Below, piece after piece: positions 28,374 to 41,431 of a DNA stretch of 64,000 nt (position 1 is its first letter; each line of letters begins with the position of its first letter). The notes beneath the pieces are model-generated. The model searched no databases. It worked only from the letters and a program-made list of their open reading frames with translations, and was not told the origin of the DNA. The translations under genes were made by a program, and so were the position numbers. Source of the stretch: Yoonia ponticola (lineage in GTDB: Bacteria; Pseudomonadota; Alphaproteobacteria; Rhodobacterales; Rhodobacteraceae); NCBI RefSeq assembly GCF_014199395.1, contig NZ_JACIJM010000002.1, forward strand, positions 124,001-188,000, given 5' to 3'.

Positions 28374-30353
28374 CTACGTAACCGCAATTCGAGGCCGCCC
28401 GTGGGCTGTGACCTTGATTGTGGCCTCGATAAACATGGGTTGATTTTCGATAGTGACCTCTTTGATGTTACGGTCGATTGTCAGGCGGATATCTTCGACA
28501 CCAGCGGCGCGGGCTTTGGTGCTGGCAGTTTGCGAAAGCTGTGTTTCAAGCGCGGCGAGGGCTGTGTTTTTGTCGGTGTATCCGGTGCCCAATGCTGCGA
28601 AATGGCCTGGACCGTTGCTGGTGACTTGACCGACTTCGTGCATCGCGACCTGCCCGACGACCGCGCCAATTGCGTTTGCGACACCCGCATATTCTGGCAA
28701 CACCATACGCGTATTCAATCGCTTACCAACCGCGCCATAGTACGATGCCGCCGACGCGCCCAGCCCGATGACTGGAACGCCCAGCTTGAGAGACGTTTCA
28801 ATCACGCCACGATGTTGATCTAGACCCGCTTTGGTTAACGGATGATTGCTAAGCGCTGTCCGCTCCACATCCCAGTCGCGACCGTCTTCGGCAAAGGCCG
28901 CATCAAGCAGACAATCCACGGTCTGTGCCGTGAGTTGGTCGATAATCATTTGCGCAAGGTGCTTTGCGTCAGGCGCAAGGCGGTCGCCGCTGCCGCTGCG
29001 TTTTCGGGCAAACAGGGTTAACGCCTTTTCAGCGGCGTCCGTATCCCATGTGTCAGCCTTACCTAAAACATGCGCCGCATCGGATGGCGTGACGCCTGCG
29101 AGCATTGCCAGCCCACGCGTGACTAATCGGCCTAGCGCAGGGCCCTCCATCCGCGTCGTGACCGCCTGACCGTAGCGCACAGGACCGTCTTGCAATCGCT
29201 CGGCGACACCGGTTTCTCGTGGGTCGAGCCCCTGCGGGAATGCAGACCAAAGCGGGATCACGATCTGACCGCCGTCAATTGCGGGGGACGGCAGGCCCAA
29301 CGCTTGGTCCAATGCCAGATGCACGACGTCGGGGTAATGGTGCGCGGCCAATGCAATCGGCATCAAGCGTCGCGGCCCGAGGCGCAGCCCGGCCTTTAAC
29401 CCTTCAATAACATGCACTTCGCTATCGCCGCCAAGTCCGGTCGTTCGCATTGCCACCGCTTCGACCATCGTGCGATAGGGGCCGACACGCGCACCCTGCG
29501 GATCAATCTGCGGGCGACCGTCGCGCAAAAGGCAAACATCCGTCGTCGTACCACCAATGTCGCTGACCAGCGCGTTCTGCTCGCCTGTTAACCATGCTGC
29601 ACCAGCAATTGACGCGGCAGGCCCACTAAGAATCGTTTCAATCGGTTTTTCGCGGGCAACAGCGGCGGACACCAACGCCCCGTCACCGCGTACAACCATC
29701 AGCCGCGCGTTGATCCCTTTATCCGCCATATGCGTTTCACACGCGGTGATCAGCGCATCAATCATCCCGATGAGACGCGCGTTCAACAGCGCGGTCAAAG
29801 CGCGTTTTGGGCCACCTAACGCCGAAGATAATTCATGTGAACATGTTACGGGCAGGTCCGTCACAGCGCGAATATGATCGCGCACTTCGATTTCATGGGC
29901 CGGATTGCGCGTCGCGAAACTACCTGCAACCGCATAGCCAGTGACCCCAGTTGGCATCGCGGCCTTTAATGCTGTTAAATCAAGCGCTTGCAGCTCGGCA
30001 CCAGCATGAGAATGCCCACCTTGCAGGAACACAACAGGATCACCGCGCAACGCATCCTTAAGGCCAGCGCGTTCCAATTCCGCCGCCTCGAACCCGATCA
30101 AGATCAATGCAACGCGCCCGCCTTGACCTTCGACCAGTGCATTTGTCGCCAAGGTCGTTGATAGCGAAACCAGCGCCACATCCGCCGGATCGACGCCCGA
30201 CAAAACAGTATCCATCGCAGCACCAACACCTTGCGATAGATCCGGGCGCGTTGTCAGCGATTTTGCAGAGGCCACGATCTGATCCGTCGCCTCGTCCAAG
30301 ATCACCGCATCAGTATATGTGCCGCCGGTATCAACGCCCAAAAGATATGCCAT
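28374..30353 (-). CDS. Hydantoinase/oxoprolinase family protein (HyuA-type)
   Basis: A 659-residue ATP-dependent hydantoinase/oxoprolinase subunit A. The N-terminal phosphate motif is LGVDTGGTYTDAVI at residues 5-18; the second actin-fold block is SDIGGTTTDVCLL near 255. The start at 30353 is preceded by AAAGGAGAG; the frame is open another 50 codons upstream but without homology. No HyuB partner is adjacent, as in the single-subunit members. It follows the ABC importer operon after a terminator, so it probably has its own promoter in 30354-30467. Substrate may be a cyclic ureide or a lactam (inference from position). Confidence 0.85.
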   Translation of the reverse strand: MAYLLGVDTGGTYTDAVILDEATDQIVASAKSLTTRPDLSQGVGAAMDTVLSGVDPADVALVSLSTTLATNALVEGQGGRVALILIGFEAAELERAGLKDALRGDPVVFLQGGHSHAGAELQALDLTALKAAMPTGVTGYAVAGSFATRNPAHEIEVRDHIRAVTDLPVTCSHELSSALGGPKRALTALLNARLIGMIDALITACETHMADKGINARLMVVRGDGALVSAAVAREKPIETILSGPAASIAGAAWLTGEQNALVSDIGGTTTDVCLLRDGRPQIDPQGARVGPYRTMVEAVAMRTTGLGGDSEVHVIEGLKAGLRLGPRRLMPIALAAHHYPDVVHLALDQALGLPSPAIDGGQIVIPLWSAFPQGLDPRETGVAERLQDGPVRYGQAVTTRMEGPALGRLVTRGLAMLAGVTPSDAAHVLGKADTWDTDAAEKALTLFARKRSGSGDRLAPDAKHLAQMIIDQLTAQTVDCLLDAAFAEDGRDWDVERTALSNHPLTKAGLDQHRGVIETSLKLGVPVIGLGASAASYYGAVGKRLNTRMVLPEYAGVANAIGAVVGQVAMHEVGQVTSNGPGHFAALGTGYTDKNTALAALETQLSQTASTKARAAGVEDIRLTIDRNIKEVTIENQPMFIEATIKVTAHGRPRIAVT

Positions 30354-30420
30354 GTGATCTCTCCTTTGCTTGTCGATATGACTAAACCCACACCGCTTGC
30401 CAGTAGAAATGCGCGGCCTC

Positions 30421-30464
30421 GCTTCTTTGACTTTCTTTAAATCCCCGCCGGAGGCATCCGTCCC
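30421..30464 (-). repeat. Dispersed intergenic repeat, copy 2
   Basis: Read on the minus strand it has the head GGATGCCTCCGGCGGGGA and the tail TTTAAAGAAAGTCAAAGAAG. The tail corresponds to that of the copies at 503-549 and 60957-61003, and the head corresponds to that at 42885-42924. It lies between the terminator of the ABC importer operon and the HyuA-type gene. Confidence 0.65.
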
Positions 30465-30467
30465 AAC

Positions 30468-30497
30468 AAAAAACGCCCCGGCCCGAAGGCCGAGGCG
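30468..30497 (-). terminator. Rho-independent terminator after the importer operon
   Basis: In minus-strand RNA a 10-bp stem (CGCCUCGGCC paired with GGCCGGGGCG, one G-U pair) with a UUCG loop is followed directly by six U residues (A-tract at 30468-30473). It stands 22 bp after the stop codon of the substrate-binding protein gene and closes the operon that begins at 39260. Confidence 0.9.
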
Positions 30498-30519
30498 CAT
30501 CATCGCAACGATTAACGGT

Positions 30520-31512
30520 TTAGTTCAATGCAGCATCCGTGATGGCATGTGTCCATGCACCCTCTGGTTCCATCGAAATCACAGGATCAGAACCGCCAGC
30601 CAACAGTGTCGCCACTGTCCGCTCGTAGTCTGCAACGTCCAACGCACCGTTCGATCCGGCTGTTAGCTTGCCAACTTCGGTCATCATCCGCACCTGCGCG
30701 GCCTCGTTTTGCGCACCAGTTTCGTCGTTATCCAAAACGATGTTTGCCGCTTCTTCTGGATTGGCTTCAGCGTATTTCCAGCCCTCCATGGATGCCCGCA
30801 CAAAGCGCACCATTTTGTCGACGAACACTGGATCATCAAGGTTATCTTCCAGCACGTAGATGCCGTCTTCTAGCGTGGCAACGCCCTGCTCTTCGTATTT
30901 GAACGTGATCAATTCCTCAGGGTTTACGCCCGCATCCAGCACCTGACCGTATTCGTTGTAGGTCATCGTCGAGATGCAATCCGCCTCGCGGTTCAACAGC
31001 GGATCGACGTTGAAACCTTGTTTCAGAACCGTCACGCCGTCTTCACCACCGTCGGTCGAGATGCCTTCTTGCGACATCCATGACAGGAACGGATATTCGT
31101 TGCCAAAGAACCAAACGCCGATGGTTCTGCCTTTGAAATCTTCAACGGATGTGATGCCAGTGTCTTTCCAGCAGGTCAGCATCAGGCCCGATGTTTTGTA
31201 AGGCTGCGCGATGTTTACAACTGGCAAACCTTTTTCACGGGCGGCCAATGCGGATGGCATCCAGTTCAGCATCGCGTCAGCGCCGCCGCCCGCCAAAACC
31301 TGCGGTGGTGCAATGTCGGGGCCACCAGCCAAGACGGTCACATCAAGACCCTCGGCCTCGTAAAACCCTTTGTCTAGCGCCACGTAATAACCCGCGAATT
31401 GCGCTTGTGTGACCCATTGCAATTGCAACGTCACTTCGTTGGCTTCGTCTGCCATGGCGGTTGTGCCGCCCAGTGCTGCCGTGATTGCAGCGGTCATCAT
31501 TACCTTTTTCAT
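30520..31512 (-). CDS. ABC transporter substrate-binding protein (NMT1/ThiY-like)
   Basis: A 330-residue periplasmic binding protein with a Sec signal peptide (about residues 1-21, ending TAMA). The fold is that of the NMT1/SsuA-like family: LQLQWVTQAQFAGYYVALDKG near residue 30, given only as a location, is the usual start of lobe 1. Members bind thiamine precursors, sulfonates or small heterocycles. The start at 31512 has GGAGAGAG upstream. With two permeases and an ATPase in the same pyrimidine operon, the ligand is probably a pyrimidine or its breakdown product (inference). Confidence 0.85.
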   Translation of the reverse strand: MKKVMMTAAITAALGGTTAMADEANEVTLQLQWVTQAQFAGYYVALDKGFYEAEGLDVTVLAGGPDIAPPQVLAGGGADAMLNWMPSALAAREKGLPVVNIAQPYKTSGLMLTCWKDTGITSVEDFKGRTIGVWFFGNEYPFLSWMSQEGISTDGGEDGVTVLKQGFNVDPLLNREADCISTMTYNEYGQVLDAGVNPEELITFKYEEQGVATLEDGIYVLEDNLDDPVFVDKMVRFVRASMEGWKYAEANPEEAANIVLDNDETGAQNEAAQVRMMTEVGKLTAGSNGALDVADYERTVATLLAGGSDPVISMEPEGAWTHAITDAALN

Positions 31513-31570
31513 ATCTCTCTCCTTGTTCAAATATGCGCGCCATTTTGGCGTCGTTATTTATCGTCGTTTT

Positions 31571-32410
31571 TTATCGCTGTGACGGGTGCCAGAATGTCAT
31601 CCGTTTTTCGATTAATGTCATCGCGCCGTAAAACGCGCTTCCCGCGAGGGCTGCGACCACAATCTCTGCCCAGACCATGTCCAGCGCAAGCTGTCCAAAG
31701 CTGGTTGATATCCGAAAGCCCATGCCAACCGTGGGAGAGCCGAAAAATTCAGCAACAATTGCCCCGATCAGTGCCAAAGTGGTCGCGATTTTAAGCCCGT
31801 TGAAAATGAACGGCATCGCGGCAGGCAGGCGTAATTTGAAAAGCGTCGGCCAATAGCCCGCGCCGTAGGTCCGCATCAGGTCGCGTTGCATCGCACTTGT
31901 GTCCTTGAGCCCCGCTACCGTGTTTACGAGGATCGGGAAAAACACCATCACGGCCACGACAGCAGCCTTCGATTCCCAATCGCTGCCCAGCCATTTCACA
32001 AAGATCGGCGCGGTGCCCACGATGGGTAGTGCTGCCATAAACCCACCCACAGGTAGAATGCCACGCGTCAGGAAATCAGACCGATCCGCAAGCACGGCCA
32101 CACCAAATGCAGCAATCCCGCCAATGACATATCCCGTCATGGCACCTTTAATAATTGTTTGATGGAAGTCCGCCCACAAACGCGGCCCTTCAACCAACAG
32201 CCGCGCACCGATGGACGATGGCGCAGGCAAGATCACCGGATTGACGTCAAAGCCACGCACCAGCAGCTCCCAAACCAGGATCACGGTGATACCAAAGATC
32301 GCCGGGATCAAGATTTTCACGATTGGGTGGTCAGACTGTGCGCCCTTTGCCAGCTTCACATTCAGCCACCAACCAGCGGCCCAGATCGCTATTGCGTAGA
32401 GAATAATCAT
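31571..32410 (-). CDS. ABC transporter permease (SsuC/ThiX-like)
   Basis: A 279-residue permease with about six to seven membrane segments and the EAA loop (residues about 175-200, LMRTYGAGYWPTLFKLRLPA) that contacts the ATPase. The permease upstream overlaps its ATG by 4 bp (ATGA). A small hairpin, CGCCATTTTGGCG, sits between its stop and the substrate-binding gene and may affect differential expression of the two. Confidence 0.88.
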   Translation of the reverse strand: MIILYAIAIWAAGWWLNVKLAKGAQSDHPIVKILIPAIFGITVILVWELLVRGFDVNPVILPAPSSIGARLLVEGPRLWADFHQTIIKGAMTGYVIGGIAAFGVAVLADRSDFLTRGILPVGGFMAALPIVGTAPIFVKWLGSDWESKAAVVAVMVFFPILVNTVAGLKDTSAMQRDLMRTYGAGYWPTLFKLRLPAAMPFIFNGLKIATTLALIGAIVAEFFGSPTVGMGFRISTSFGQLALDMVWAEIVVAALAGSAFYGAMTLIEKRMTFWHPSQR

Positions 32411-33327
32411 GTCGCGGCCATCCCCATGCGCTTTAAGGTGATGCGCTCGATCACGCTAAATAATCCGACCAAAGCCGCTGCCGTCAACGCCGCTGCAAAT
32501 AATGCGGCCCACGACACAAGCGGTTGCCCGTATTGATCGCCGACCAACATGCGTGCGCCAAACCCTGCTTTGGCCCCTGTGGGCAGTTCGGCCACGATCG
32601 TCCCGACGAGAGATGCGGAAATGCCGATCTTCAACGACGCGAACAAATAGGGCGCTGATGCTGGCAAACGCAGCGCCCAGAACCCTTGTGATTTCGACGC
32701 ATTATAGGTCCGCAATAGATCAAGCTGCATGGCATCAGGACTACGCAGCCCCTTCACCATGCCCACAACCACCGGAAAGAATGACAGATAGGCGGCAATA
32801 ATCGATTTCGGAAACAACCCTTGGATACCCATCGAGCCGAGCACGACGATAATCATCGGAGCAAGCGCAAGAATGGGTATAGTCTGGCTGACGATTGCCC
32901 ATGGCATCACTGATTTATCCATCACGCGGCTGTAAACAATGCCCACAGCCAGCAGAATACCAAGGCTCGTCCCGATCAAGAACCCGAGCAATGTCGGCGC
33001 GAGCGTCACCCAACCGTGGTACACAAGACTGCGCTTTGACGTGATTTTCTGGCCAATGATCGTCCGATACATCTCGCCCGCGACTTGATGCGGCGACGGT
33101 AGCCGTGGCCGCACAAACGTATAAGTTAGCGGGATCAAATGCGCGTTGCGCAAAGCCAAACCAGCACCTGAAAATTCCTGACGTGCCGCAGGTGTATCAG
33201 GTGTCACAACCAAGTCGTCGCGCTGTGCCTGATCGGCGACCAAATGCATGTTCATCGGCGGCACGCAGACCACCCAAAACAGCAAGATCGCACTGATAAC
33301 TGTTAAAACCGGAAGGATCGATTTCAT
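32407..33327 (-). CDS. ABC transporter permease (SsuC/ThiX-like)
   Basis: A 306-residue permease with an N-terminal membrane anchor, a periplasmic segment of about 65 residues (about 27-90), then the usual six-helix core with an EAA loop near residue 220 (LLRTYNASKSQGFWALRLPA). The long periplasmic insert is unusual for this family and absent from the partner permease. The two permeases are not copies of each other and probably form a heterodimeric channel. Confidence 0.88.
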   Translation of the reverse strand: MKSILPVLTVISAILLFWVVCVPPMNMHLVADQAQRDDLVVTPDTPAARQEFSGAGLALRNAHLIPLTYTFVRPRLPSPHQVAGEMYRTIIGQKITSKRSLVYHGWVTLAPTLLGFLIGTSLGILLAVGIVYSRVMDKSVMPWAIVSQTIPILALAPMIIVVLGSMGIQGLFPKSIIAAYLSFFPVVVGMVKGLRSPDAMQLDLLRTYNASKSQGFWALRLPASAPYLFASLKIGISASLVGTIVAELPTGAKAGFGARMLVGDQYGQPLVSWAALFAAALTAAALVGLFSVIERITLKRMGMAAT

Positions 33328-33366
33328 GCGCCACCCCCAGCTTCATTTCGCCAAAACAACTCAATC

Positions 33367-34212
33367 CTACACATCATCAGAATGCCCCGCCCGCAAACCG
33401 TCACGCACCCGATGGGCAATCTCGATGAATTCAGGGCTATCACGAATTTCGAGCGGTCTTTCGCGTGGCAATGGGCTGTCGATCACATCCGAGATGCGTC
33501 CCGGACGCGGGGACATCACGACGATTTTGGTCGAAAGGTAAACGGCCTCTGGGATCGAATGTGTTACAAAGCCAATAGTCTTTTCGGTACGTGCCCAAAG
33601 CTTGAGCAGTTGTTCGTTCAGGTGGTCGCGGACGATTTCGTCCAGCGCCCCAAAGGGTTCGTCCATCAGTAGGATATCCGCATCAAAGGCCAGCGCTCGC
33701 GCGATCGACGCACGTTGCTGCATGCCCCCAGAAAGCTGCCAAGGGAATTTGCGGTCGAACCCGTTGAGGTCCACCAGATCAAGTACACGTTCGATCCGTT
33801 TCGCCTGTTCGGCTTTGTCGAAGCCCATGATCTCTAACGGTAGTCGGATATTTCCGCCAATCGTCCGCCATGGGTACAGACCCGCCGCTTGGAAAACATA
33901 ACCGTAGGCCCGCGCACGGCGCGCCTCGTCCGGTGTCATTCCGTTGACCGAGATATCGCCTGCCGTTGGTGTTTCTAACCCCGCGATGCAACGCAGGAAC
34001 GTCGTTTTTCCGCAGCCTGATGGCCCGATGAAGCTGACGAATTCGCCTTTTCCGATGTCCAGATCGACGTTTTTGAGCGCGTGGATCGGCCCGTCGTTTG
34101 TTTGAAATGTCAGATCAAGGTTTCGCGCCGTGATCACAGTCGCCCCCGACGCCGCAGCCGCCCGTGATCCGGGGGTGAGTTGTTTTGCGGCCAATTCTGC
34201 GACTGTGGGCAT
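33367..34212 (-). CDS. ABC transporter ATP-binding protein
   Basis: A 281-residue ATPase with Walker A GPSGCGKTT, signature LSGGMQQR, and Walker B ILLMDEPFGALDE, all intact, and the H-loop in FVTHSIPEA. An N-terminal extension of about 30 residues precedes the domain. I use the ATG at 34212 (MPTVAELAAKQ); an in-frame start at 34260 would run into the gene upstream. It energises the two permeases downstream. Confidence 0.9.
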   Translation of the reverse strand: MPTVAELAAKQLTPGSRAAAASGATVITARNLDLTFQTNDGPIHALKNVDLDIGKGEFVSFIGPSGCGKTTFLRCIAGLETPTAGDISVNGMTPDEARRARAYGYVFQAAGLYPWRTIGGNIRLPLEIMGFDKAEQAKRIERVLDLVDLNGFDRKFPWQLSGGMQQRASIARALAFDADILLMDEPFGALDEIVRDHLNEQLLKLWARTEKTIGFVTHSIPEAVYLSTKIVVMSPRPGRISDVIDSPLPRERPLEIRDSPEFIEIAHRVRDGLRAGHSDDV

Positions 34213-34228
34213 GCGGTATCTTTCTAAT

Positions 34229-34726
34229 TCAGGTCGTATAAGTATCTTGCGGTCCAACAAAAGCCGCGACGGTCATGGCAAGCGGATGGTGCAAAATCCA
34301 TTGTGGCGCAGGCGCGCCTTCGGGGTATTGCGGCCAGCCATTCGAGTTCGCCACGGGGATAATTTTAATCAATCGGCGCGGTCCTGATGTGTGAAATTCC
34401 AACATCATGACTTCGTTTTTCATCGTATCGACGGTGTAGCCATTGGCGAGCAATGCTTCTTCGGCTGTGCGTGTGTCGGGGCCCATTTCGTCGGGGTCCC
34501 AGTCCGCCGCATGCCCCGCCATTTGCGTGTAACGGCGGAAGGTCCAGTCGTCGTATTTGGGCGCGGATTGCAGGTGCGCCACGGTATATCCCATCGACAG
34601 TTGCCCTGCGTTGAACCCCATGCAGCGTTCCACATCAAAGCGGTTTTTGCCAGCAATCGCGCTTTGCTGCGTGATGATACCCGCCTCGAAAATCGTGCGG
34701 CCAATGGGGATTGGTGGCGTCGTCAT
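34229..34726 (-). CDS. Uncharacterised protein of the pyrimidine operon
   Basis: A 165-residue soluble protein with no signal peptide; I do not recognise the family. It is rich in acidic residues and has a well-defined N terminus (TTPPIPIGRTIFEAGIITQQ at residues 2-21) and central FNAGQLSMGYTVAHLQ. It lies between the ABC ATPase and an exported protein with overlaps of a few bases, so it belongs to the pyrimidine catabolism and import operon. A metabolic or regulatory role in uracil use is possible but unproven. Confidence 0.6.
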   Translation of the reverse strand: MTTPPIPIGRTIFEAGIITQQSAIAGKNRFDVERCMGFNAGQLSMGYTVAHLQSAPKYDDWTFRRYTQMAGHAADWDPDEMGPDTRTAEEALLANGYTVDTMKNEVMMLEFHTSGPRRLIKIIPVANSNGWPQYPEGAPAPQWILHHPLAMTVAAFVGPQDTYTT

Positions 34727-35073
34727 GGCGCCTCACACACTGTGATTTCGGTTTCAAATTCAGGGTAGGCTTCGGGGTGGATCAGCAGCGTGTTCTCGTC
34801 CTCTGTGGTCATGATCATGTAGTAATCTTCCCACGTCTCACCTTCGCCAGTGCATTCGACTGTCACCACCGTAGCACCGGAGCCGACCTGCAATGCACCT
34901 GTGACGGGACAGGTGCTTTCGACCCGTTGGATCGTGTTTTGGTCGTAGAGGTAGAGGCTGTCGGTCTGGACCGGATCACCCGCGAGCCAAGCGCAGCCTG
35001 CCTCGTCGCCGTAGACTTGGGCAATGCTGAAAGTCGGTAAAACGCAAAGCGGTAATATGAGGCTAAACTTCAT
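34723..35073 (-). CDS. Small exported protein of unknown function
   Basis: A 116-residue protein with a typical signal peptide (about residues 1-18, ending SIA) and a beta-rich acidic mature part with four cysteines (Cys27, 55, 74 and 113 approximately) that could form two disulfides. No homology recognised. Its start overlaps the stop of the membrane protein gene upstream and its stop overlaps the next gene, consistent with one transcript with the pyrimidine transporter. Confidence 0.6.
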   Translation of the reverse strand: MKFSLILPLCVLPTFSIAQVYGDEAGCAWLAGDPVQTDSLYLYDQNTIQRVESTCPVTGALQVGSGATVVTVECTGEGETWEDYYMIMTTEDENTLLIHPEAYPEFETEITVCEAP

Positions 35074-35546
35074 AGGATAGCTTCCCCTGCTGGAATATGG
35101 CGTCCACCGCCTGACAATGACCGTTCGACAAATAGATAAAGAACGCCACTAAATATGCCGACTGCTACAAATTGGGCGTAGATCGAAACGACGCCGCCTG
35201 CCAACGGTACGTCGATCAGAGAAAAATTCTCTGTATACAAGTCTTCAGCGAGCGCGCAGGCAGCGGTCACCCCACCCGCAAGACCAGCCGCAAAGTATGT
35301 TACCCAATTCATTAGGCCCGCGAAGAGACGGGACAGCAAAAAGACCGGTAGGCTTGACAGAAAGCCAACCAAATAAGCGAAAACCGCAAAAGTCATCGTC
35401 GATTGGGCCACTTCTAGTATGCTCAAATCAGGTTCTTCCCCTAAACGCTGAGCCTCCGGCCATAAAAATGCGCCCGCGATAACGATCGCAATTGGCAGGA
35501 CCGCGATGCAGTATCCAATAACGATTGATATCAAAAGGCGCACCAT
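35070..35546 (-). CDS. Small four-helix membrane protein of unknown function
   Basis: A 158-residue protein with about four membrane helices (around residues 5-28, 45-68, 75-100 and 115-140). Not recognised. The ATG at 35546 starts 8 bp after the dihydropyrimidinase stop; an in-frame start at 35618 would overlap that gene. Its context suggests an accessory envelope component of pyrimidine import. Confidence 0.6.
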   Translation of the reverse strand: MVRLLISIVIGYCIAVLPIAIVIAGAFLWPEAQRLGEEPDLSILEVAQSTMTFAVFAYLVGFLSSLPVFLLSRLFAGLMNWVTYFAAGLAGGVTAACALAEDLYTENFSLIDVPLAGGVVSIYAQFVAVGIFSGVLYLFVERSLSGGGRHIPAGEAIL

Positions 35547-35554
35547 AGATCTGA

Positions 35555-37012
35555 TTAAACCCCAGTCGCCGGAATGCCAGACCGCTGCACAGGCCGTGGT
35601 GCTGTCAGTTCTTTCCATGACGACAATGCACGGTTCACGGGTGTGTTGCCTTCGCGTTTCACGAATTTGCCGGAACCTTCTTGGGTCCGGATTTCGCCAT
35701 CGTGGACTGCGACATGGCCGCGTGTGAGGGTGAAGCGCGGTAGGCCTTTGACTTCTTTGCCCTCGAAGACATTGTAATCAATCGCGGATTGCTGGCTGCT
35801 GGCTGTGATTGTTTTGGTTTTTTCAGGATCCCAGACCACGAGATCGGCGTCCGCCCCGACAAGGACCGCGCCTTTTTTCGGGTAGCAGTTTAAGATTTTA
35901 GCGATGTTCGTGGATGTGACGGCCACAAATTCGTTCATCGTCAAACGGCCAGTGTTGACGCCATGCGTCCAGAGCATCGGCATCCGATCCTCAAGCCCGC
36001 CGGTGCCGTTCGGGATTTTTGTGAAGTCGCCAACGCCGTAGCGTTTTTGTTCGGTCGAGAATGCACAATGGTCGGTTGCCACGACGGACAATGTTCCGGC
36101 CTGCAGACCCGCCCAAAGGCTGTCTTGGTGCTGTTTATTCCGGAAAGGCGGGGACATGACGCGGCGGGCGGCGTGGTCCCAATCTTTGTTGAAATACTCG
36201 GATTCGTCGAGCGTGAGGTGCTGGATCAGCGGTTCGCCCCAGACCCGTTTGCCTTGCATTTTCGCGCGGCGGATTGCCTCGTGCGCTTCTTCGCAGGACG
36301 TATGCACGACGTACAGAGGCACGCCCGCCATGTCAGCGATCATGATCGCGCGGTTGGTTGCTTCGCCTTCGACTTGGGTTGGGCGAGAATAGGCGTGTGC
36401 CTCTGGTCCGGTGTTGCCTTCGGCGAGCAGTTTCGCGGAGAGTTCCGCGACGACATCGCCGTTTTCGGCGTGAACCATCGCGATGCCGCCGAGGTCAGCG
36501 AGGCGGTTGAAGGATGCGTATAATTCGTCGTCATTCACCATCAACGCGCCTTTGTACGCGAGGAAGTGTTTGAACGTGTTGATGCCGCGGTCTTTGATGA
36601 CCGATTCCATTTCGTTAAAGACCTGTTCGCCCCACCATGTCACGGCCATATGGAACGAATAGTCACAATTCGCGCGGGTCGATTTGTTGTCCCACATTTG
36701 CAACGCGTCATGCAGGCCTTGGCCCGGTGACGGCAGTGCGAAATCGACAACCATCGTGGTGCCGCCAGCAAGGGCCGCACGCGTGCCGGATTCGAAGTCA
36801 TCCGTTGAATAAGTCCCCATAAACGGCATCTCAAGATGCGTATGGGGGTCGATGCCACCGGGCATGATGTAACAGCCGGTGGCATCAAGTTGTTCGTCGC
36901 CCGTCAGGTTCGCCCCAATTTCGATGATCGTGCCGTTCTCAATCAGCACATCAGCCTTGTAGGTCAGGTCTGCTGTGACAATGGTGCCGTTTTTGATCAC
37001 TTTGGTCGTCAT
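35555..37012 (-). CDS. hydA: Dihydropyrimidinase (D-hydantoinase)
   Basis: A 485-residue cyclic amidohydrolase that opens dihydrouracil and dihydrothymine to N-carbamoyl-beta-amino acids, the second step of reductive pyrimidine breakdown. The metal site HTHLEMP lies near residue 60, the carboxylated lysine in FKHFLAYKG near 150, and HAENGD and HTSCEEA supply further ligands. The start at 37012 is chosen because the sequence MTTKVIKNGTIV is homologous; the frame is open 82 codons upstream without homology. Length is normal. Neighbours are the lipoprotein genes and the importer. Confidence 0.93.
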   Translation of the reverse strand: MTTKVIKNGTIVTADLTYKADVLIENGTIIEIGANLTGDEQLDATGCYIMPGGIDPHTHLEMPFMGTYSTDDFESGTRAALAGGTTMVVDFALPSPGQGLHDALQMWDNKSTRANCDYSFHMAVTWWGEQVFNEMESVIKDRGINTFKHFLAYKGALMVNDDELYASFNRLADLGGIAMVHAENGDVVAELSAKLLAEGNTGPEAHAYSRPTQVEGEATNRAIMIADMAGVPLYVVHTSCEEAHEAIRRAKMQGKRVWGEPLIQHLTLDESEYFNKDWDHAARRVMSPPFRNKQHQDSLWAGLQAGTLSVVATDHCAFSTEQKRYGVGDFTKIPNGTGGLEDRMPMLWTHGVNTGRLTMNEFVAVTSTNIAKILNCYPKKGAVLVGADADLVVWDPEKTKTITASSQQSAIDYNVFEGKEVKGLPRFTLTRGHVAVHDGEIRTQEGSGKFVKREGNTPVNRALSSWKELTAPRPVQRSGIPATGV

Positions 37013-37035: not shown

Positions 37036-37317
37036 TTAGGCTTCGGGACAGATCGGATTTGTGCCGTCGAAGGACACAGGCCGGATATCGTCGCCAAAGC
37101 GGTAGAAGTAGCAGCCGTCTTGGATTTTCACGGCGGATGCAGGGATGCCTTCGGGCAGGGCTGCGGAAACTTCGGCTGGGAATGGTTGTGTCGCGGCCAG
37201 AACCGGACCCGGCTCTACGGGCCGTTCTGGCAGTGAAATTACAATCGGGCTTGCGCAAGCAGAGGCCAGAGACACGAAGGACAGAGCAGCAAGTGTTTTG
37301 TATGTGATGGAAAACAT
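37036..37317 (-). CDS. Small lipoprotein, pyrimidine-operon paralog 1
   Basis: A 93-residue predicted lipoprotein with the lipid-attachment cysteine in SLASAC near residue 21. The mature part has the shared signature PxxVxxALPEGIP, then DGCYFY, and a final cysteine. It resembles the two small lipoproteins encoded just upstream (37336-37581 and 37582-37908), so all three arose by duplication. Two conserved cysteines of the mature part probably form a disulfide. Start ATG at 37317; a GTG at 37326 is possible. Confidence 0.7.
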   Translation of the reverse strand: MFSITYKTLAALSFVSLASACASPIVISLPERPVEPGPVLAATQPFPAEVSAALPEGIPASAVKIQDGCYFYRFGDDIRPVSFDGTNPICPEA

Positions 37318-37335
37318 GGGCGTCACTTTCTGAAA

Positions 37336-37581
37336 TTAAGCGTTACATTGGACAGCCGCATCGGGTGCCGCTGTCGTTTCGATCAAAACGAGCTGACCGT
37401 GGGATGGGTAATAGTAGCAGCCATCGCGCTGAAGCACGTTGAAGGCTGGCACATTGTCCGGCAAGGATTGTTCAACCGTCAACGGCACAATCCCGTCCGT
37501 CTGGATAAATCCCTGCGGAGGAAGCGGACGCTGGCACGCGGCCAACGTCCCCATGGCGGTTATGATTACCACCGGATTCAT
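37336..37581 (-). CDS. Small lipoprotein, pyrimidine-operon paralog 2
   Basis: An 81-residue predicted lipoprotein with a clean lipobox (TLAAC near residue 16). The mature part shows the family signature: PLTVEQSLPDNVP, then RDGCYYYP, and a C-terminal cysteine (QCNA). It lies immediately upstream of paralog 1 and its ATG directly abuts the stop codon of paralog 3, indicating one transcript. Confidence 0.65.
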   Translation of the reverse strand: MNPVVIITAMGTLAACQRPLPPQGFIQTDGIVPLTVEQSLPDNVPAFNVLQRDGCYYYPSHGQLVLIETTAAPDAAVQCNA

Positions 37582-37908
37582 CTAGAGCGCAGGATCAAGT
37601 GGCGGCGCATTTGCCGCGATTTGATCAGGTGCGATCACCCCATCGCTGCACACCCAATTACCAGCAGCATCACGCAGCGGACGACCCGTGCGCGGCTCGC
37701 CAGCTTCGATACCAACAGCCCAACACCCGTTCGCTGCCTCAAAGACGAAATCGCGCGGCATACCATCAGGCATAGCTGCTTGGACTTGCGCAGGAAGCGG
37801 CGGCGGTGGTGGCGGAATAGGCACGCCGTTTTCATCAACAGGGCCGGGGGTCAGATCAGCACAGGCCGCAATCAGCGGCAGTACAAGTAGCGGGATCAGA
37901 CGTTTCAT
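37582..37908 (-). CDS. Small lipoprotein, pyrimidine-operon paralog 3
   Basis: A 108-residue predicted lipoprotein (lipobox LIAAC near residue 16). After a proline-rich linker it carries PAQVQAAMPDGMP and ANGCWAVG, then a cysteine near the end, matching the other two paralogs. The extra proline stretch PPPPPPLP could span the periplasm or bind a partner. The gene follows the carbamoylase after a 101-bp spacer that contains nested inverted repeats. Confidence 0.65.
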   Translation of the reverse strand: MKRLIPLLVLPLIAACADLTPGPVDENGVPIPPPPPPLPAQVQAAMPDGMPRDFVFEAANGCWAVGIEAGEPRTGRPLRDAAGNWVCSDGVIAPDQIAANAPPLDPAL

Positions 37909-38009: not shown

Positions 38010-39260
38010 TCAGCTTACAATCTCTGCGGTTTCGACAACGGCGTGAAATAACACGTCCGTACCTGCTGCCGCCCATTCTTGGCTGATTTCCTCGGCCTCG
38101 TTGTGGGACAAACCGTCAACGCACGGGCACATCACCATCGCGGTCGGGTACATGCGGTTGATCCAGCAAGCGTCGTGACCCGCGCCGGAAATCAAATCCA
38201 TATGGGAATAGCCCAACCGTTCCGCTGCATTCCGCACGGCCGTGACGCAGGTTTCATCGAAGGTTACGGGGTCGAAACCCCCTACTTTTTTGAAATCAAT
38301 TGTCATGCCCATAGCGTCGACGATGGCCTGTGCTTCGGTTTTGAGCCGCGTTTCCATGTCTTTGATGACGCTTAGATCGGGCGACCGGAAGTCGACGGTA
38401 AAGACAACTTTGCCCGGAATCACGTTGCGCGAGTTCGGGTAGACGTCGATATGGCCCGCAGCACCCACCGCATGAGGCGCATGAGACAGCGCGATTTCTT
38501 CGACCTTTTCGAGAACCCGCGCCATCGCGAGGCCCGCATTTTTGCGCATTGGCATCGGGGTCGATCCGGTGTGCGCGTCCTTACCGGTGATTGTGATTTC
38601 GGTCCAAGACAGGCCTTGACCATGCGTGACGACGCCGATTTGTTTATTTTCGGCCTCTAGGATCGGCCCTTGTTCGATGTGCAGCTCAAAGAATGCATGC
38701 ATTTTGCGTTCGCCGACGGGTTCATCACCCTTCCAACCGATCCGCGCCAGTTCGTCACCGAACTTTTTGCCTTTCGCATCTTCGCGTTCATAGGCCCAAT
38801 CTTGGGTATGAATGCCTGCAAAAACACCGGACGCGAGCATCGCAGGGGCAAAGCGCGTCCCTTCTTCGTTGGTCCAATTGGTCACAACGATGGGGTGCCT
38901 TGTTTTAATGTCGAGGTCGTTCATCGTGCGAATGACTTCTAGACCGCTCAGCACCCCCAGAACGCCGTCGTATTTGCCGCCAGTGGGTTGGGTATCAAGG
39001 TGCGAACCGACATAGACCGGCAGCGCGTCGGGATCTGTACCTTCGCGACGCGCGAACATGTTGCCCATGGTATCAACGCCCATCGTGCATCCGGCAGCGG
39101 TACACCAATCTTGGAACAGGTGCCGACCTTCGCTGTCTTCGTCCGTCACGGTCTGGCGGTTATTGCCGCCCGCGATACCGGGGCCGATCTTAGCCATTTC
39201 CATCAACGTGTCCCACAAACGAGATCCGTTCACTTTGAGATTTTCACCCGGTGCTGGCAT
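38010..39260 (-). CDS. Beta-ureidopropionase-type Zn hydrolase (hydantoinase/carbamoylase family)
   Basis: A 416-residue M20-like amidase that removes the carbamoyl group from N-carbamoyl-beta-alanine or -beta-aminoisobutyrate, the last step of the reductive pathway. Metal ligands are visible in GSHLDTQP, the DGVLGVLSGLE segment, TNEEGTRF, ELHIEQGP and the C-terminal GAGHDACW. The start at 39260 is preceded by GGGGGT; the frame is open to a GTG at 39308 but that region contains the operator. It is the first gene of the long RutR-controlled operon. Confidence 0.88.
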   Translation of the reverse strand: MPAPGENLKVNGSRLWDTLMEMAKIGPGIAGGNNRQTVTDEDSEGRHLFQDWCTAAGCTMGVDTMGNMFARREGTDPDALPVYVGSHLDTQPTGGKYDGVLGVLSGLEVIRTMNDLDIKTRHPIVVTNWTNEEGTRFAPAMLASGVFAGIHTQDWAYEREDAKGKKFGDELARIGWKGDEPVGERKMHAFFELHIEQGPILEAENKQIGVVTHGQGLSWTEITITGKDAHTGSTPMPMRKNAGLAMARVLEKVEEIALSHAPHAVGAAGHIDVYPNSRNVIPGKVVFTVDFRSPDLSVIKDMETRLKTEAQAIVDAMGMTIDFKKVGGFDPVTFDETCVTAVRNAAERLGYSHMDLISGAGHDACWINRMYPTAMVMCPCVDGLSHNEAEEISQEWAAAGTDVLFHAVVETAEIVS

Positions 39261-39286
39261 AGCGACCCCCGTTGCTGCTTGCTTAT

Positions 39287-39302
39287 TTGACCATCTGGTC
39301 AA
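39287..39302 (-). promoter_or_regulatory. RutR operator, perfect consensus
   Basis: TTGACCATCTGGTCAA matches the E. coli RutR box TTGACCAnnTGGTCAA at all 14 defined positions. It lies 27-42 bp upstream of the carbamoylase start and immediately downstream of a candidate promoter, the position of a repressor site. The regulator gene starts 127 bp away on the other strand, so the operator may also control it. Confidence 0.85.
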
Positions 39303-39306
39303 AGAC

Positions 39307-39334
39307 ACGCTAACAGAGGCGGGAAACCAGTCAA
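39307..39334 (-). promoter_or_regulatory. Candidate sigma-70 promoter of the pyrimidine operon
   Basis: On the minus strand TTGACT, 16 bases, TAGCGT. The -35 matches five of six positions, the -10 only three. The RutR box begins just after it, so repressor binding would block transcription initiation. Start site is not directly visible. Confidence 0.35.
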
Positions 39335-39428: not shown

Positions 39429-40031
39429 ATGCCCAAGTCAGCCACCCGTATCCAACAGAAAAACCAAGCCGCGATTATGACGGCAGGGTTAGAAGTATTT
39501 TCCCAGTTCGGCTTTCGCGGATCGACATTAGACCAAGTCGCGGACGCGGCTGGCCTGTCGAAGCCAAATTTACTGTATTATTTTCCATCCAAGGACGCGA
39601 TCTACACGGCGCTGTTGGCGCGGTTGTTGGAAAACTGGTTAGAGCCATTGCATCAAATGAACGATGCCGGTGATCCGGTTGAGGAAATCCTGGGCTACGC
39701 CAATCGCAAACTAACCATGAGCCGCGATTTTCCACGCGAAAGCAGGCTGTTTGCGAATGAGATTCTGCAGGGCGCGCCACGCATCAAAGATGTTCTTGCT
39801 GGTGAATTGCGTGCGTTGGTCGAAGCCAAAGCGACGGTTATCAAACGCTGGATTGCTGAAGGTAAGATCAAACCCGTTGATCCTGTTCACCTGATATTCT
39901 CGATCTGGTCATTGACGCAACACTACGCGGATTTCGATGTGCAGGTTCGGGCGATTTTAGGCGACACCGATCCGTTTGATACGGCTGAAACACACTTAAA
40001 TGATGTGTTCCGTCGGCTGCTGACGCCTTAG
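39429..40031 (+). CDS. rutR: RutR-like TetR-family regulator of pyrimidine use
   Basis: A 200-residue TetR-family repressor closely resembling E. coli RutR in both domains. The helix-turn-helix spans about residues 30-58 (ADAAGLSKPNLLYYFPSK), and the ligand-domain block near residues 155-175 (IFSIWSLTQHYADF) corresponds to the IFMIWASTQHYADF block of E. coli RutR. RutR releases DNA on binding uracil or thymine. The gene is divergent from the carbamoylase operon, with the consensus operator between them, and convergent with preA. Confidence 0.9.
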   Translation: MPKSATRIQQKNQAAIMTAGLEVFSQFGFRGSTLDQVADAAGLSKPNLLYYFPSKDAIYTALLARLLENWLEPLHQMNDAGDPVEEILGYANRKLTMSRDFPRESRLFANEILQGAPRIKDVLAGELRALVEAKATVIKRWIAEGKIKPVDPVHLIFSIWSLTQHYADFDVQVRAILGDTDPFDTAETHLNDVFRRLLTP

Positions 40032-40126: not shown

Positions 40127-41431
40127 TTATTCAGCCGCAACTGCGCCTGGATTGTTAGGATGCGTCGTCCAGTTTGCATAGTCGCCCGACACCACTTTAC
40201 CAGTGCGCGGATCAACTTCGCCGGGCTTCATTACTTCCATCGTGATGCAATTTTCCACCGGACAGACATCGACACAGAGATTACACGCAACGCATTCTTC
40301 GTTAATGACGCTGAATGTCCGATCTTCGGACATTGCAATCGCTTGGTGAGATGTATCTTCGCAAGCCGCATAGCAGCGTCCGCACTTGATACAATCGTCT
40401 TGGCTGATCACGGCTTTGGCAACGTAATTCAGATTTAAATACTGCCAATCGGTGACATTCGGCACCGCCATGCCGACAAAATCTGACGTGTTCGTGTGGC
40501 CTTTTTCGTCCATCCACTGCGACAAGCCGCTGATCATTTCTTCAACGATCTTAAAGCCATACGTCATCACAGCTGTACAAACTTGAACATTGCCACAGCC
40601 CAGCGCCATATATTCAGCCGCGTCGCGCCACGTGGTCACGCCACCGATGCCGGACATTGGCAGGCCTTGCGTTTCAGGGTTACGCGCGATTTCGGAAACC
40701 ATCGACATCGCGATTGGTTTCACCGCAGGACCGCAGTAGCCGCCGTGCGTGCCTTTGCCATCGATGGTTGGCTCAGGGGCCATGGAATCGAGGTTCACAG
40801 ACGTGATCGAGTTGATCGTATTGATCAAGCTAACCGCATCTGCACCGCCGCGTTTCGCTGCCGCTGCCGGCAGGCGAATGTCGGTAATGTTGGGCGTCAG
40901 TTTTACGATGACAGGTTTGCTGTAGTACTGCTTGCACCAGCGCGTCACCATTTCGATATATTCTGGCACCTGTCCGACGGCACTGCCCATGCCGCGTTCG
41001 GCCATGCCGTGCGGGCAACCAAAGTTCAGTTCGATCCCGTCGGCGCCGCAATCTTCGACCAATGGCAGGATCGCTTTCCACGCCTCTTCTTCGCAAGGCA
41101 CCATGATCGACGCGATAATCGCGCGATCTGGGTAGTCCGCTTTGACGCGTTTGATTTCTTCGAGGTTCATGAACAGGTCTCGGTCTGTGATCAATTCGAT
41201 ATTGTTCAGACCTAGCAAGCGCCGATCTGCGCCATAAATCGCGCCGTAGCGTGGGCCGTTGACGTTCACGACTGGCGGCCCTTCGGACCCAAGCGTTTTC
41301 CAAACCACGCCACCCCAGCCGGCCTCGAAGGCGCGGCGGACGTTATATTCTTTGTCAGTCGGTGGTGCCGAAGCCAGCCAGAACGGGTTTGGGGTTTTGA
41401 TACCTAAAAAATCTGTTGTGAGATCAGCCAT
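40127..41431 (-). CDS. preA: NAD-dependent dihydropyrimidine dehydrogenase subunit PreA
   Basis: A 434-residue flavo-iron-sulfur protein. The N-terminal FMN barrel has LNFGCPHGM with the active cysteine near residue 140; the C-terminal domain carries two 4Fe-4S motifs, CIKCGRCYAAC and CVACNLCVDVC. With PreT it reduces uracil and thymine to the 5,6-dihydro forms, the first step of the pathway. Its ATG overlaps the preT stop by one base. Confidence 0.93.
   Translation of the reverse strand: MADLTTDFLGIKTPNPFWLASAPPTDKEYNVRRAFEAGWGGVVWKTLGSEGPPVVNVNGPRYGAIYGADRRLLGLNNIELITDRDLFMNLEEIKRVKADYPDRAIIASIMVPCEEEAWKAILPLVEDCGADGIELNFGCPHGMAERGMGSAVGQVPEYIEMVTRWCKQYYSKPVIVKLTPNITDIRLPAAAAKRGGADAVSLINTINSITSVNLDSMAPEPTIDGKGTHGGYCGPAVKPIAMSMVSEIARNPETQGLPMSGIGGVTTWRDAAEYMALGCGNVQVCTAVMTYGFKIVEEMISGLSQWMDEKGHTNTSDFVGMAVPNVTDWQYLNLNYVAKAVISQDDCIKCGRCYAACEDTSHQAIAMSEDRTFSVINEECVACNLCVDVCPVENCITMEVMKPGEVDPRTGKVVSGDYANWTTHPNNPGAVAAE

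Follow-up and report, generated by a model that had tools for sequence, protein, structure and literature searches.

Three tandem genes of the window, which is the whole 64,000-nucleotide stretch of the Yoonia ponticola genome analysed here, encode members of a small-lipoprotein family that is real and, within the searches made, undescribed. The family is unknown to the databases searched and occupies two sharply distinct genomic addresses: one clade (c2) lies mostly beside genes for L,D-transpeptidases, and the clade of the window (c1) lies mostly at genes of pyrimidine or hydantoin degradation. The reading that we favour, tentatively and with somewhat less than even confidence, is that c2 is a partner of L,D-transpeptidases and that c1 was recruited into a RutR-type pyrimidine operon and acts at the envelope.

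The genes lie head to tail on the minus strand in the order urp, lipoproteins 1, 2 and 3, dhp, and the three adjacent lipobox reading frames reported in the initial annotation were confirmed at 37582..37908 (lipoprotein 1, P0001, 108 aa), 37336..37581 (lipoprotein 2, P0002, 81 aa) and 37036..37326 (lipoprotein 3, P0003, 96 aa from a GTG). An ATG at 37317, three codons in, may be an alternative start of lipoprotein 3 and would yield 93 aa. Lipoprotein 1 ends in a TAG that abuts the ATG of lipoprotein 2 (TAGATG); the gap between genes 2 and 3 is 9 bases, and that between gene 3 and dhp, whose ATG is preceded by AGGAG, is 23. This spacing suggests that the lipoprotein genes are co-transcribed. 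Each protein possesses a lipobox by eye (IAAC, LAAC and ASAC in genes 1, 2 and 3) and, besides the lipobox Cys, exactly two cysteines. The reported pattern, P..V..[AS][LM]P[ED][GN].P followed by GC[YW] and one later Cys, was recovered in all three, with the correction that only genes 2 and 3 have this last Cys close to the C-terminus; in gene 1, the P1 subtype with a 4-residue insert, GCWAVGIEAGEPRTGRPLRDAAGNWVC, it lies 21 residues before the end. The proteins are probably lipid-anchored at the membrane; lipidation is less certain for the protein of gene 2, because its signal peptide has no basic residue in the n-region.

Comparison with two genomes that share the arrangement (G242 and G225) gave dN/dS values of 0.07-0.15, 0.06-0.13 and 0.09-0.17 for lipoproteins 1, 2 and 3, against 0.01-0.06 for dhp and urp in the same comparison. 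These values illustrate that all three lipoprotein genes are real and under purifying selection, and that they evolve faster than the neighbouring enzymes. The dN/dS values of 0.06-0.17, together with the orthologues, argue against spurious open reading frames.

All three proteins share a domain of about 50 residues with two cysteines. Pairwise BLASTP linked P0001 with P0003 (E 3e-6) and P0002 with P0003 (E 2e-8), and P0001 with P0002 at E 0.35. When clade HMMs were scored on the mature proteins, with 2000 shuffled versions of each as controls, the P1 model on P3 (27.1 bits), P3 on P2 (23.1), P2 on P3 (25.5), P3 on P1 (11.5) and P1 on P2 (10.9) all exceeded every shuffle. The P2 model on P1 was weak (3.5 bits, with 7/2000 shuffles as high), 1/2000 shuffles equalled the score of the P3 model on the c2 protein of the window's genome, and the c2 model on P1 was equalled by 17/2000, a result that counts against our favoured reading. 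Profile-profile comparison (hhalign) gave probabilities of 96.1% for P1-P3, 95.9% for P2-P3 and 59.8% for P1-P2, and 95-97% for each against c2. The suggestion that the three form a duplicated family is thus borne out by most pairs and by the profile comparison proposed with it, with P1 and P2 as the weak pair; the domains are homologous as judged by these scores, genes 1 and 2 being joined mainly through gene 3 and relatives outside the window.

A tree of 72 domain cores places every copy together with the corresponding copies of G242 and G225. Copy 1 is further joined by G234, a genome with three copies, and then by G132, which has two, and others across the bacterial family; copy 2 is likewise joined by G234. 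The triplication is therefore old, since relatives of copies 1 and 2 also occur outside the three genomes that share the arrangement. A recent tandem duplication is ruled out by the placement of the copies in separate tree groups, in trees that rest on few alignment columns and contain many unresolved forks.

Neither Pfam nor NCBIfam contains a family that matches the window's three proteins above its cut-off, in agreement with the remark in the initial annotation that no characterised family carries this signature. At E<=1, Pfam returned nothing for P0001 and P0003 and only T2SSL (E 0.19) for P0002, and no binding-protein domain of ABC importers was found by Pfam in the three. Two c2 relatives and one c1 relative gave nothing above the Pfam cut-off, and one of each clade nothing above that of NCBIfam. 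A keyword search of one open-access library revealed no recognisable description of the family, and we found no member that had been studied experimentally, which counts against our favoured reading. AF2 models of the P1 core (pLDDT 85, pTM 0.65) and of a c2 member (pLDDT 77, pTM 0.66), each resting on five sequences, predict a helix together with a small beta-sheet in the former and elements in a similar order in the latter. Sequence-profile searches of the PDB gave best E values of 0.73 and 0.22, to molecules with no evident link; Foldseek gave 0.82 and 0.69, with no convincing fold match; VIA-align on the P1 model gave nothing with a Z of 2 or more; and a BFVD search with the c2 model gave no match (best E 0.06). 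A binding role is therefore not readable from the fold.

Exactly two cysteines are present in 72/72 aligned cores, partly by construction since the profile holds both, and two besides the lipid Cys are present in 42/43 mature proteins, the other one being cut by a contig end. In the periplasm they most likely form a disulfide. These 43 relatives were picked by the lipobox pattern, so that their lipobox is present by construction; Asp directly follows the lipid Cys in 5/43. In E. coli, an Asp after the lipid Cys decides the membrane destination of a lipoprotein, and by this rule most of the family's proteins would go to the outer membrane. The predicted architecture is a signal peptide, a lipid-anchored Cys, a variable and often Pro-rich linker, and one two-Cys domain of about 50 residues, in which we recognised no catalytic motif. 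Because its conserved features (two Cys, Pro, Gly, an aromatic residue) look structural, the domain would be a small membrane-held binding or scaffold module and not an enzyme.

To survey the family, a 16-row clade profile was searched against 295 genomes of the window's bacterial family, and the resulting counts are lower bounds: matches occur in at least 100/295 genomes, with at least 136 matches in all. We classified 135 of them; the remaining one (G031:C15, locus L192) is a c2 gene with no L,D-transpeptidase within 1.5 kb. Clade c2 comprises 100/135 matches: an L,D-transpeptidase is encoded within 2.5 kb of 91 of them, 4 are located at urp/dhp, and 5 have neither neighbour. Clade c1 comprises 30/135, of which 28 have urp, dhp, hyuA or rutR within 2.5 kb; the two that have none (L217 and L218) speak against our favoured reading. 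Five matches fit neither clade model, and 3 of these lie at urp/dhp. The pyrimidine/hydantoin address thus holds 35/135 matches, found in at least 32/295 genomes, three of them in each case without a clade. The expectation that the lipoproteins co-occur with pyrimidine genes is upheld for c1 and fails for c2, homologues away from such genes being what the initial annotation had counted against itself. A pyrimidine-only family is refuted by c2: the window's clade does have a genuine link to pyrimidine genes, and the family is not pyrimidine-specific. The two clades are homologous by profile-profile comparison (98.1%, E 6.8e-14), and c2 shows the conserved pattern NCYWY.H.GPVETTLLPLRT..G..IC.

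The gene orientation differs between the two addresses. The L,D-transpeptidase model was built from six enzymes adjoining c2, three of them confirmed as YkuD by Pfam. Beside this specific subfamily (n=90), 85 c2 genes are convergent with the L,D-transpeptidase gene, with -17 to +212 bases between the two stop codons; the other 5 are codirectional, so that the pair mostly does not form one operon. All 29 classified c1 or c2 genes near urp or dhp are codirectional with those enzymes; 27 lie between urp and dhp, and for the other two just one of the enzymes was found. A separate c2-profile search matched 138/292 genomes of the order and 2/385 drawn from the wider class, both of the latter belonging to the genus of the window. 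No member was detected outside the window's bacterial family, to which the c1 search was confined. Within the genus, profile A1 hits 18/56 genomes at E <= 0.1, several by c2 or by chance, and ten genomes (G000, G242, G225, G234, G220, G231, G210, G249, G221 and G212) have c1 next to urp, dhp or hyuA/rutR. The rows of the c1 profile came from two genome-wide searches (queries P0003 and A1) and are mostly syntenic; in these searches, matches with no lipobox/two-Cys pattern (L008, L016-L019, L021, L022, L037, L039, L041, L046, L047 and L051) were set aside as chance. In one genome (G480:C1, loci L234 and L235) four c2 matches were observed, at least 2 with an L,D-transpeptidase nearby.

Plasmids also carry the c2 address. 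One c2 protein matches 178 plasmid records, and P0001 gave no match in the same collection. In five plasmid stretches examined, two of which share one segment, an L,D-transpeptidase gene follows the c2 gene tail-to-tail, amid copper-related, ABC-transporter, aromatic-catabolism and metal-transport genes, and the c2 gene is annotated as a hypothetical protein. The L,D-transpeptidase beside c2 is likewise encoded on plasmids from the Roseobacter group. The Ruegeria plasmid (L239) has the pair in a copper island with cueR, a P-type ATPase, a multicopper oxidase and DsbA-/DsbD-like genes; L136 has a set similar by eye, and an IMG/VR contig (L236) carries the pair as well. Copper is described as an inhibitor of the L,D-transpeptidases of E. 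coli (PMC10470522).

At least two lineages occupy the urp-dhp slot. The c2-type genes in it (L074, L291, L293 and L319) form one supported subclade with L325 (98/97), which has no urp/dhp neighbour, in a tree that used about 1/3 of the c2 rows and whose "pyr" label includes the c1 rows L162 and L172, with no pyrimidine genes. A fifth slot gene, L275, is poorly placed. In a tree that omits the four newly found slot genes, a branch with 100/99 support separates c2 from the rest; the c2 profile includes L074, itself a pyrimidine-slot gene. Small lipoproteins after urp in L062 and L109 have a similar two-Cys layout and no profile match, and are possibly very divergent members. Such a slot invites the explanation that the lipoproteins are passengers, generally useful at the envelope and placed where expression is good, with no pathway-specific role. 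The patchy presence of the family, its occurrence at other addresses and the longer lipoproteins, unrelated by eye, that fill the same slot in two Litoreibacter loci (L055, 251 aa; L072, 238 aa) all suit this explanation, which we nevertheless judge rather unlikely: 28/30 c1 genes lie at pyrimidine/hydantoin genes in differing arrangements (in the slot, HyuA-adjacent or RutR-adjacent), and the slot also houses c2-like members.

The surroundings of the three genes in the window are those of a reductive pyrimidine cluster. Next downstream, also on the minus strand, lies dihydropyrimidinase (dhp, 35555..37012; TIGR02033, 604 bits, cut-off 393), and upstream an M20 hydrolase of the hydantoinase/carbamoylase family (urp, 38010..39308, minus; TIGR01879 400 bits, NF006769 698 bits). 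The placement between these two enzymes is confirmed, and "ureidopropionase" is a name given by context: the best NCBIfam name of urp is allantoate amidohydrolase (NF006769), and urp is likely a beta-ureidopropionase. Further genes are a divergent RutR-like TetR regulator (39429..40031, plus; TIGR03613 241 bits, below the cut-off of 368, and PF08362 over its cut-off), preA for a dihydropyrimidine dehydrogenase subunit (40127..41431, minus; NF006183 716 bits, cut-off 335), an ABC importer with an NMT1/THI5-like binding protein, two permeases and an ATPase (30520..34260, minus; PF09084, PF00528 twice, PF00005) and a HyuA-type hydantoinase/oxoprolinase (28374..30503, minus; PF05378, PF01968). Between the ATPase and dhp lie three minus-strand reading frames of 165, 116 and 182 aa (34229-35618), for which no Pfam family scored above cut-off; among 98 loci, the 116-aa frame (exported, Cys-containing) was found in L144, L145 and L225, and the other two in L144 and L145 only. 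The pathway evidently works without a lipoprotein, which is thus accessory, since dhp occurs in 255/295 genomes and most of these have no match there; being nearly everywhere, dhp is uninformative by its presence.

The importer raises the possibility that c1 is an uptake helper that binds pyrimidine, hydantoin or N-carbamoyl substrates, or sits at a porin, and feeds the cluster's importer, much as the initial annotation had proposed ligand delivery. An NMT1-type importer does belong to the same gene cluster, and at two other loci the c1 gene adjoins a RutR-like gene together with ABC importer genes (L133) or with frames that look like an importer by eye (L221). However, the binding protein is about equally frequent in operons with the lipoprotein (14/22) and without it (45/76), and neither the permeases nor the ATPase are more frequent with it (17-18/22 against 68-69/76), in a comparison whose loci "with" are centred mostly on the lipoprotein and those "without" on urp. 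The latter are 76 of the 80 urp-homologue loci, which are those closest to the window's urp and not a random sample; L074 and L125 were moved to the "with" set, and L062 and L109 were excluded. The domain is moreover very small, and the c2 genes of the five plasmid stretches have no common transport context. Because the importer is not enriched with the lipoprotein, an uptake role is unlikely in our view and ranks below a general envelope role; a helper specific to the importer is rejected on the same enrichment result, which also lends no support to the proposed ligand delivery.

Between urp and the rutR-like gene, at 39287..39302, lies a perfect RutR-type operator, TTGACCATCTGGTCAA, with 0 mismatches to TTGACCNNNNGGTCAA, which we take to be the RutR operator consensus. 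The window contains 6 sites with at most 2 mismatches against 2.65 expected, and this one alone is exact. RutR binds a palindrome of about 16 bp (PMC10891134). Many of the 80 closest urp homologues align only from residue 17, so the true start of urp is probably M17, at 39260, and the operator would then lie upstream of urp. In the 20 lipoprotein loci with both urp and rutR, the 500 bases upstream of rutR hold an exact site in 12, a site with one mismatch in 4 and with two in 3, and none in one (L226). Three loci with c1 and a RutR-like gene and no urp (L133, L135 and L221) have no site with at most 2 mismatches near rutR, and two with urp and no rutR in the stretch (L142 and L232) none with at most 1. 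A scan for promoters and terminators gave results near chance. Judged from the operator-like sites, the lipoprotein genes may be under RutR control. Regulation of the cell wall by c1, which would modulate L,D-transpeptidases or other wall enzymes according to uracil or thymine and so link pyrimidine status to cross-linking, would fit the sister clade's location at L,D-transpeptidases, the RutR-type site heading the window's cluster and the c2-type members in the pyrimidine slot, but it is decidedly improbable, since the c2-associated kind of L,D-transpeptidase lies within 2.5 kb of 0/30 c1 genes (by a subfamily model that may miss others) and no phenotype is known.

Our favoured reading, in which c2 partners L,D-transpeptidases and c1 serves the envelope from within a pyrimidine operon, can be set out as follows. 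Because the L,D-transpeptidase neighbour is near-constant, c2 would most likely be an envelope partner of the adjoining YkuD enzyme, in the way proposed for DalA. Clade c1 would have been recruited into the RutR-type reductive pyrimidine operon, and so should be made during uracil or thymine degradation, acting on the envelope side of the pyrimidine-degrading state; the Yoonia-related group would have retained three diverged copies. An envelope role for the family as a whole is our best guess. A bolder version, which we regard as very doubtful, would make it an adaptor family with one branch partnering an L,D-transpeptidase and the other switched by RutR, its three adaptors relaying pyrimidine status to envelope cross-linking. 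Clade c2 offers a testable candidate partner for its class of L,D-transpeptidase, and c1 raises the question of why envelope lipoproteins are found in a pyrimidine operon.

Among known families, the family phrog_28538 (PHROGs, 64 positions), of unknown function, matched a c2 protein weakly (E 0.0039) and P0002 at E 0.08, too weakly for the family to be filed there. Braun's lipoprotein (Lpp) is a substrate of L,D-transpeptidases, and its C-terminal Lys is the point of attachment to peptidoglycan. The family resembles Lpp as a small lipoprotein with, in c2, an L,D-transpeptidase connection; it differs in that the window's three proteins end in L, A and A and no C-terminal Lys was found in these or in the c2 proteins inspected, and in that Lpp is a long helix, whereas helix plus sheet is predicted for the mini-lipoprotein family. 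The closest system is DalA (RSP_1200) of Rhodobacter sphaeroides, an outer-membrane lipoprotein for which a role as scaffold or activator of L,D-transpeptidases has been proposed; its loss lowers 3-3 cross-links from ~18% to 9.4%, and 93% of Rhodobacterales genomes are reported to have a homologue (PMC10470522). Compared by its published description only, DalA is larger, at ~18 kDa against the 81-108 aa of the window's three, and its homologues are more widespread, at 93% of Rhodobacterales genomes against 138/292 genomes of the order for c2. In the window's genome, two L,D-transpeptidases flank a lipoprotein (L211) that is CAP-like by eye, and our guess from this position is that it could be the DalA counterpart. 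What the family shares with DalA, as far as that description goes, is that both are lipoproteins of the same bacterial order with a link to YkuD L,D-transpeptidases, one of which adjoins the c2 gene.
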